Made by a program: the position numbers and the translations under genes
Part shown: piece by piece, positions 1,413-44,908 of the stretch
How positions within the stretch are numbered: the first letter of the stretch is position 1
How the letters are laid out: each line of letters opens with the position of its first letter
DNA from: Halobellus inordinatus
Lineage (GTDB): Archaea > Halobacteriota > Halobacteria > Halobacteriales > Haloferacaceae
NCBI RefSeq assembly: GCF_024464655.1
Contig: NZ_JANHAV010000002.1
Coordinates: forward strand, 310,001 to 374,000
Direction of reading: 5' to 3'
Length of the DNA stretch: 64,000 nt
Notes under the pieces: generated by a model
What the model was told of the DNA's origin: nothing
The model's database searches: none
Seen by the model: only the letters and a program-made list of their open reading frames with translations

Positions 1413-1712
1413 ATGACCGATCGATCCGGACACAGACTGGGCGCGACCGACTGGGAGTTGATCGCCCGTCACGACTTCGGGGGCACGCAGGAACTCGATG
1501 CGACGATTGTCGGCGCGCTCGGTGAGGACGGCTGCTGGGACGGAGCGCCGCTCTACACCGCCGCCGACACCGAACGCGCCGAGCAGTTCCTCGCGTCCGT
1601 CGACGGCGACGACGCGCGCGTCGTCTTCACTGTCGCGGGCCACACCGTCCGCGTGTCGGCAGACGGCACCGTCGAGGTGCAGGCGACAGACGGTGGACCA
1701 CGAGAGGCCTGA
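1413..1712 (+). CDS. Small acidic hypothetical protein, 99 aa
   Basis: I do not recognise a family. The protein is acidic, without membrane segments or cysteine clusters apart from one Cys, and its C-terminal half (VFTVAGHTVRVSADGTVEV) looks like consecutive beta strands. The ATG at 1413 is preferred; an in-frame TTG at 1386 would add nine residues. The gene stops at TGA 1710-1712, and an A-family element begins at the very next base, with that TGA as the left copy of its flanking repeat. Haloarchaeal codon use supports a real gene. Confidence 0.7.
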   Translation: MTDRSGHRLGATDWELIARHDFGGTQELDATIVGALGEDGCWDGAPLYTAADTERAEQFLASVDGDDARVVFTVAGHTVRVSADGTVEVQATDGGPREA

Positions 1713-1791
1713 TACTGTCGGACAGCAGTTCGTGAATCATTTTGGCACCCACGGGGTGCCGAAAATTTTCACATAGTTCTGCCCGACAGTA
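1713..1791. mobile_element. A-family mini-element, copy A1
   Basis: This is a 79-bp imperfect palindrome. Its ends are TACTGTCGGACAG and CTGCCCGACAGTA (one mismatch), with an inner hairpin GGCACCC/GGGTGCC around 1744-1760. It is flanked by TGA on both sides (1710-1712, 1792-1794); the left TGA is the stop codon of the preceding gene. Same orientation as A2, opposite to A3. Confidence 0.88.
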
Positions 1792-1854
1792 TGACCCCCG
1801 CGACGTCGCGGCCGTGACGAACGCCTTTTCTCCGCTGCGCTCGTCGGATCGGAC

Positions 1855-24964: not shown

Positions 24965-25064
24965 GCCCGTACGTTGGACTCGGCGGACAAAAGCACCTCG
25001 TCGGGTGCCGAGTCACGTCTCGGTCCGATCGCCGCTGCGACCGATTGTACAGCCGGCAGTCTCA

Positions 25065-25142
25065 TACTGTCGGACAGCAGTTCGTGAACTATGTTGGACC
25101 CACGGGGTGCCGATACTCTTCACACAGTTCTGTCCGACCGTA
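25065..25142. mobile_element. A-family mini-element, copy A2
   Basis: 78 bp with ends TACTGTCGGACAG and CTGTCCGACCGTA (one mismatch). It is flanked by TCA at 25062-25064 and 25143-25145; the right TCA is the stop codon (TGA, minus strand) of the nfu-like gene. It has the same orientation as A1 yet is flanked by TCA instead of TGA, so the flank is target sequence, not element sequence. Confidence 0.88.
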
Positions 25143-25475
25143 TCAGAAGTGTCCGGGGTCTTCGGTACCGTACTGCAGTTCGCCGCCGCGGCCGCCCTCG
25201 ACCGTGCTGCTGCCGTGGTCGCCGGCGCTCGGAACCTTCACCCGCACGTCCTGGACTTCCTCGAAGTCCATTATCAGGTCCGCTTTGATGTTGTCGGCGG
25301 TGATGTTCGAGATGCCGCAGCCGGCGCACGCGCCGCCCAACTCGACGACGACCTCGCCGGTGTCGGGATCGGCTTTCCGAACCACGCTCTCGCCGCCGTG
25401 CATCTGGATGATCGGCATCTGGCCGGCCATCCAGGTCTCGATGCGCCGCCGGAGAGAGTCCTCTGTGTCGCTCAT
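25143..25475 (-). CDS. NifU-like (Nfu) iron-sulfur scaffold protein, 110 aa
   Basis: Carries the Nfu domain (residues about 5-85) with the cluster-binding [18 protein letters not shown] near residue 52, where the CxxC pair binds a shared [4Fe-4S] cluster. It delivers clusters to apo-proteins in the cytosol. The C-terminal tail ([20 protein letters not shown]...) is Gly/Ser-rich. ATG 25475 is chosen because upstream in-frame residues are not Nfu-like. The stop codon coincides with the flanking repeat of element A2, so the mRNA 3' end would include that hairpin. Confidence 0.92.
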
Positions 25476-32360: not shown

Positions 32361-32438
32361 TAGGGATTATCGCAACTGTTCAGAGATTCTCGTCGTACCG
32401 TCCGGCGAGACATCTATGCAGACTTACGATACTCCCTA
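32361..32438. mobile_element. C-family mini-element, copy C2
   Basis: 78 bp, ends TAGGGATTATCGCAA and TTACGATACTCCCTA; inner stem TCTCGTCG/CGGCGAGA with one G-T type mismatch. Flanked by TCA at 32358-32360 and 32439-32441. The right TCA is the stop codon (TGA) of uvrA on the minus strand, so the element starts immediately after the uvrA coding sequence. Confidence 0.88.
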
Positions 32439-35462: not shown

Positions 35463-35540
35463 TAGGGATTCTCGTAACTATTCGGAGATTCTCGCCGTAC
35501 CGTCCGGCGAGAAATCTATGACGACTTACGATAATCCCTA
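35463..35540. mobile_element. C-family mini-element, copy C3
   Basis: 78 bp, ends TAGGGATTCTCGTAA and TTACGATAATCCCTA (one mismatch), inner stem TCTCGCCG/CGGCGAGA. Flanked by TCA at 35460-35462 and 35541-35543. Unlike C2 and C4 it does not touch a stop codon; it lies in the uvrA upstream region, 73 bases from the uvrA start. Confidence 0.87.
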
Positions 35541-36146: not shown

Positions 36147-36248
36147 TAGGGGCTATCGCACCTGTTCGGAGAGTCTCGCCGTACCGTCCGGCGAGAAATC
36201 TATGACGACTTACGATAATCCCTATATGGAGACGTACGATACTCCCGA
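36147..36248. mobile_element. C-family mini-element, copy C4, with duplicated right end
   Basis: The typical 78-bp element spans 36147-36224; a second, diverged 24-bp copy of its right end follows at 36225-36248 (19 of 24 bases identical). TCA flanks the whole: 36144-36146 and 36249-36251, the latter being the TGA stop codon of the PUA-protein gene on the minus strand. Confidence 0.83.
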
Positions 36249-36905: not shown

Positions 36906-37250
36906 ATGTGGCGCTCCCGGACCAACCGGGATGGATCGACGGTCGTCTGTATCGCATGCGGGACCTCACTCCCGCGCTCGGAGGCGCGCGAGTACGACAA
37001 GCACGGAAACCGCTGGGAGAGACACGGAAAGACGTTCGAACACCTCTGTAAGGAGTGCTATCGCGACCTCTGTCACCAACCGCGGGACGAACTCGAAGCG
37101 TTGTTGCTCGAACTCGAACGGACGGACGCGGAGCGAGGCAGCGAGACCGACGGCGAAGCAGGACAGCCCAACGCGACGTTCCTCTCGCGGTACTTCCGGG
37201 CCGTCGAAGAGCGGTACGGCCCCGCTGAAGAGCCTGGACACGAGTCCTGA
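36906..37250 (+). CDS. Small zinc-binding protein with two CxxC motifs, 114 aa
   Basis: CIACGTSLPRSEAREYD (residues 15-31) and LCKECYRDLCHQPRDEL (near 48-64) supply four to five cysteines for a zinc knuckle or HNH-like treble clef. The last 25 residues (FLSRYFRAVEERYGP) form a helix that looks conserved. Similar small proteins occur across haloarchaea, function unknown. ATG 36906 is the best start; a far upstream start would overlap the PUA gene. It stops at TGA 37248-37250, immediately followed by element A3. Confidence 0.78.
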   Translation: MWRSRTNRDGSTVVCIACGTSLPRSEAREYDKHGNRWERHGKTFEHLCKECYRDLCHQPRDELEALLLELERTDAERGSETDGEAGQPNATFLSRYFRAVEERYGPAEEPGHES

Positions 37251-37328
37251 TACTGTCGGACAGACTATGTGAAAATCATCGGCACCCCGTGGGTGCCAAT
37301 ATGATTCACGAACTGCTGTCCGACAGTA
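37251..37328. mobile_element. A-family mini-element, copy A3
   Basis: 78 bp with a perfect 13-bp terminal inverted repeat TACTGTCGGACAG/CTGTCCGACAGTA and inner hairpin GGCACCC/GGGTGCC. It is inverted relative to A1 and A2. Flanked by TGA at 37248-37250 (stop codon of the zinc protein) and 37329-37331. Confidence 0.9.
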
Positions 37329-37343
37329 TGAGAACAGCCCTTT

Positions 37344-44822: not shown

Positions 44823-44908
44823 CTATAGTAGCGTTTGCATGTCTTCACTCACCTAACCGCACGCAGTCGTGCGATTATCTGTGTGATCAGTTGCAAACGC
44901 TACTATAG
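44823..44908. repeat. B-family palindromic element, copy B2 (uninterrupted)
   Basis: 86 bp with perfect ends CTATAGTAGCGTTTGCA (44823-44839) and TGCAAACGCTACTATAG (44892-44908), and inner stem CGCACG/CGTGCG. It lies between tgtA and htpX starts (divergent promoters). It is the empty-site counterpart of B1: the GATCAGTTG at 44885-44893 is where C1 sits in B1. Confidence 0.9.

Follow-up and report, generated by a model that had tools for sequence, protein, structure and literature searches.

The IS1031 and IS427 groups of the IS5 family are generally known to make a 3-bp T-N-A duplication of their target. Prokaryotic MITEs (PMC10969869) and the MITEs of Haloquadratum walsbyi (PMC3119063) are short and non-coding, with terminal inverted repeats, a target duplication and tens of copies. 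Haloquadratum also carries SMR-A/B, which are 80-110 bp long and have terminal inverted repeats, dozens of copies, no known mobiliser and a marked target preference; they leave their target unduplicated and insert mostly into other mobile elements (PMC3119063). Stop codons are not described as MITE insertion sites in the searched parts of PMC10969869 or PMC3119063.

Family A of Halobellus inordinatus is an element of this kind. It shares the above features of the MITEs in PMC10969869 and PMC3119063 and differs from them in that no autonomous partner has been found. The elements are well under about 500 bp and lack a transposase gene, have terminal inverted repeats of 13 bp, make a target duplication of fixed length, and are present in multiple dispersed, mobile copies (about 70 copies, no sites found to be shared with relatives, and near-identical copies in the sister species G005). 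The SMRs, as PMC3119063 describes them, are similar to family A in size, terminal inverted repeats, copy number and target preference, but they duplicate nothing, whereas family A duplicates T-N-A and is thus not an SMR. No description of the family A sequence was found in the haloarchaeal and prokaryotic MITE literature examined. Family A is best read as a new family of MITEs that targets T-N-A and belongs to a previously known class of element.

Family A elements in the 64-kb window

The window, that is, the whole 64-kb stretch of DNA that was analysed, belongs to a 3.41-Mb haloarchaeal genome and contains the copies A1, A2 and A3. All three are near-palindromes of 78-79 bp with the 13-bp terminal inverted repeats TACTGTCGGACAG...CTGTCCGACAGTA. 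The original prediction was that each copy has a direct repeat of TGA or TCA at its two ends, with the stop of the neighbouring gene forming one of the two triplets, and this was confirmed by the coordinates and by an independent gene caller. A1 (79 bp, 1713..1791, plus strand, one mismatch in its terminal repeats) lies between a TGA at 1710..1712 and another at 1792..1794, both on the plus strand. The left one is the stop codon of a HalOD1-like gene (1413..1712, plus strand, start possibly at 1458). A2 (78 bp, 25065..25142, plus strand) has the same orientation as A1 and is flanked by TCA at 25062..25064 (plus strand) and at 25143..25145, the latter being, on the minus strand, the TGA stop codon of the NifU-like gene nfu (25143..25475, minus strand). 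A3 (78 bp, 37251..37328, minus strand), which has the opposite orientation to A1, is flanked by TGA at 37248..37250 and 37329..37331, both on the plus strand, and the left triplet is the stop codon of a zinc-ribbon-like DUF7562 gene (36906..37250, plus strand). The three abutted proteins match the Pfam families HalOD1, NifU and DUF7562, respectively. The gene ends at 1712 (plus), 25143 (minus) and 37250 (plus) were called independently by a caller whose training set was the long open frames of the H. inordinatus genome itself, with no curated annotation used; it gave a coding density of 85% and recovered the genes expected in the window.

Judged by nfu, the closest named relatives of this genome are Halobellus species, which places it in that genus. 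Relatives of the abutted genes end in the same way but carry no element. The nfu genes of five Halobellus relatives end CACTTC-TGA and are not followed by an element, and in several genomes relatives of the genes abutted by A1 and A3 also stop at a TGA that has no element next to it (unoriented rows from minus-strand matches were ignored in this comparison). The stops at the A sites are therefore older than the insertions. Insertion sites common to H. inordinatus and the examined loci of G004, G005 and G007 were not found.

Genome-wide distribution of family A

A covariance model was built from 32 copies and applied to 150 of the 1840 candidates from a first look, so that very decayed copies may have been missed. 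It identified 73 family A loci in the H. inordinatus genome, among which the few with the weakest scores may be false; the copy number is about 70. Nearly all are 77-79 bp long, and they are non-coding. A perfect 3-bp duplication is present in 59 copies, and in all 59 the duplicated word is T-N-A: TGA in 28, TCA in 25, TAA in 5, TTA in 1 and TAG in none. These counts bear out the proposal that the triplet belongs to the target and not to the element, i.e. that it is a target-site duplication. A TA duplication of the IS630/mariner type was ruled out, because what is repeated in these 59 copies is T-N-A.

Twenty-nine of the 59 copies (49%) are situated exactly at a stop codon, and the other 30 are at non-stop T-N-A words. 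The expectation from T-N-A sites outside genes is 7.7 copies (13%; P about 1e-10), the background being 751 kb sampled as stretches around copies, not the whole genome. In this sample stops make up 14% of the TGA/TCA sites and 8% of the TAA/TTA sites outside genes. The comparison with randomly occurring TGA and TCA, which had been suggested as a check, thus came out far above chance. The original prediction had held that the association would be due to chance or sampling if most copies were away from stops. Half of the copies are indeed off stops, yet the chance expectation is exceeded, and an explanation in which stops are occupied simply because they are among the numerous TGA/TCA words that occur outside genes is hardly credible. 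It is refuted for the H. inordinatus genome by the above tally, about 8 copies being expected, and by the repetition of the pattern in the unrelated family B (P 5e-6; see below). The more general idea that A elements insert at stops has to be narrowed: the excess is real, but it coexists with 30 copies at other T-N-A words and with low stop shares in the sister species (10/44 and 5/39).

The use of other stop codons and the strand relation to the abutted gene had also been put forward as checks. TAA is the occupied stop in 3 of the 29 stop-sited copies. TAG, although it constitutes 22% of the called stops, is never occupied, because it is excluded by the T-N-A rule. Both orientations relative to the abutted gene are found (14 versus 15). 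At G000:C11:142693 (L053) a decayed copy is reduced to a single terminal repeat, which immediately follows the TGA with which a UspA-like gene ends. In copies with a decayed duplication (C1:45230, C17:5695 and C20:184573) it is mostly the triplet on the stop side that has stayed intact; this was dropped as circular evidence, since a gene with a mutated stop would escape calling.

Target context and the stop excess

Targets follow the consensus YTNAR and often read GAC-TGA, as haloarchaeal gene ends do. In the non-stop copies the base before the target is C, less often T or G and almost never A, the base after it is G or A and almost never T, and GA or TA is often found further upstream. In a context model, each T-N-A site is weighted by the context of the 30 non-stop copies and positions are assumed to be independent; under it, 20-25% of copies are expected at stops instead of 13%. 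The 49% found in H. inordinatus exceeds this weighted expectation about twofold (with the widest context, P 4e-5). Enrichment as a function of the distance from the gene 3' end is confined to distance 0. Between 1 and 120 bp copy numbers are near expectation, and family A is depleted 121-400 bp downstream of genes and at sites without a gene 3' end facing them. A comparison limited to the 60 bp that follow genes makes the excess smaller but does not remove it: 29 of 37 copies are then at the stop versus 58% expected (P 0.008). Copies nearest the consensus are at stops in 5 of 19 cases, and other copies in 28 of 48 (P 0.07). Survival over time may be the cause of the residual excess; an incomplete context model is another possibility. 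Sequence preference and harmlessness account for most of the stop association, not clearly for all of it.

The sister species serve as natural controls. Their copies form a subfamily related to family A, and the stop shares, 10/44 in G005 versus 22% expected from context and 5/39 in G004 versus 15%, both fit the context model. The share is higher in H. inordinatus than in either, a gap for which the best explanation does not account. The duplication is a perfect T-N-A in 43 of the 44 G005 copies.

The same habit was found in family B, a MITE-like family unrelated to family A in sequence (78 bp, ends TAGGGATTATCGTA...TACGATAATCCCTA). It has four copies in the window, at 1194-1271, 32361-32438, 35463-35540 and 36147-36224. 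The copy at 32361..32438 (strand not assigned) has a TCA duplication and lies at the stop of a minus-strand gene of 982 aa. The family B duplication is mostly T-N-A, and 11 of 19 T-N-A copies in the 751 kb sampled are exactly at stops, an excess over chance with P 5e-6 and, against the family A context model, with P 8e-4. The repetition of the habit by family B indicates that it is a property of T-N-A insertion in this genome rather than of the family A sequence.

Origin of the stop association

We consider it about 75% probable that family A is a MITE family that targets T-N-A and to which stop codons offer sites that are common, harmless and a good match, context and survival together placing about half of the copies there. 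A transposase acting in trans would move the elements, recognizing a palindromic target around T-N-A and duplicating those three bases; movement of this type is suggested by the duplications, the copy number and the element-free relatives. The enzyme would not read stop codons as such, but would prefer Y-T-(C/G)-A-R, and upstream of this motif there is frequently a GA or TA. A stop is then a better-than-average target because haloarchaeal genes commonly end GAC-TGA, as the context weighting showed. Because insertion duplicates the T-N-A target, it restores the stop codon and changes neither the last codon nor the encoded protein, in support of the earlier proposal that insertion leaves the stop and the frame intact. 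Insertions in genes or promoters would be lost, since copies are depleted there. Several findings speak for this explanation: all 59 duplications are T-N-A, half of the copies are off stops, the non-stop copies share the gene-end context, the sister species fit context alone, the unrelated family B has the same habit, and element-free relatives have the same stops. Against it count the excess exactly at the stop that remains after context weighting and the 60-bp restriction, the transposase, which was not found, and the derivation of the context model from 30 non-stop copies on the assumption of independent positions. A 3-bp palindromic target that fits both TGA and TAA would be a simple route to a near-harmless transposon in a gene-dense archaeon, and a quantitative null composed of target context and survival, with sister species as controls, can be used to judge other claims of stop targeting.

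The residual excess could also mean that stops are actively targeted beyond their local sequence, for instance through exposed single strands, a special topology or a recruiting factor at transcribed 3' ends. Enrichment at distance 0 and its absence at 1-120 bp would agree with this, as would the combined figure for families A and B, 40 of 49 copies at the stop within the first 60 bp after genes versus 58% expected (P 4e-4), which is seen in both families. The DNA at a stop, however, differs from the DNA a few bases on by sequence only, the sister species have no excess over context, and half of the copies lie off stops. Dedicated stop recognition was rejected as the main cause on the last two grounds, and active targeting appears quite unlikely. 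A broader form of the claim, that two unrelated MITE families pick the exact stop above what local sequence or 3'-end tolerance predicts and so reveal real stop- or 3'-end-specific targeting or retention in H. inordinatus, is unlikely. Positive selection of the stop-sited copies, with the hairpin acting as a transcription terminator or as a stabiliser of the mRNA 3' end, would fit the high stop share and the strength of the fold (A1, -40.7 kcal/mol, z -7.6; A2, -32.3 kcal/mol, z -3.5). The original prediction that insertion adds a hairpin directly after the gene holds to this extent, but a near-palindrome folds regardless, and the hairpin is best seen as a by-product, nothing supporting a terminator role. 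Only 1 of 23 pairs has a compensatory change (covariation term 0.16), there is no Rfam match, and no enrichment occurs 1-60 bp downstream, where a terminator would serve equally well. With almost no covariation and no orientation bias, a terminator function was rejected, and we regard it as very improbable. The preferred reading remains a MITE family with a T-N-A target, to which stops are well matched.

Search for the mobilising transposase

No autonomous partner with matching ends was found through solo ends, filtered 9-mer patterns, T-N-A-anchored patterns in G007 or PF01609 loci; the PF01609 loci in four genomes included none with ends matching family A. Pattern scans of IMG/VR returned single matches per contig, about the chance level. 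The end pair G007:C10:3056/5284 was discarded, its right end being inside a coding gene. A mobilising transposase was not found for the G005 subfamily either. Family A has the same 3-bp T-N-A duplication as the IS1031/IS427 groups, but no transposase or IS5-type end is linked to it, and the T-N-A word by itself makes an IS5-type link only a lead.

Additional palindromic elements and predicted start codons

A third family of palindromic elements, about 86 bp long and with CTATAGTAGCGTTTGCAA ends, is present at 44823-44908 and also at about 1127-1293, where it is split by a family B copy. It is apparently inserted at CTATAG-like sites and is itself a target of family B at TGCAACTGA.

Loci L108-L147 of G005 comprise more than 40 nearly identical copies of the 78-bp subfamily with TACTGTCGGCTATA ends. 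Their near-identity indicates that they are young, the product of a recent burst. The terminal A of the element together with a TGA target always forms ATGA at the right edge of an inserted copy. In a few copies (L119, L127 and L131 in G005 and L264 in G004) a called gene has its predicted start at the new ATG, so that insertion might supply a putative start codon to the neighbouring gene.
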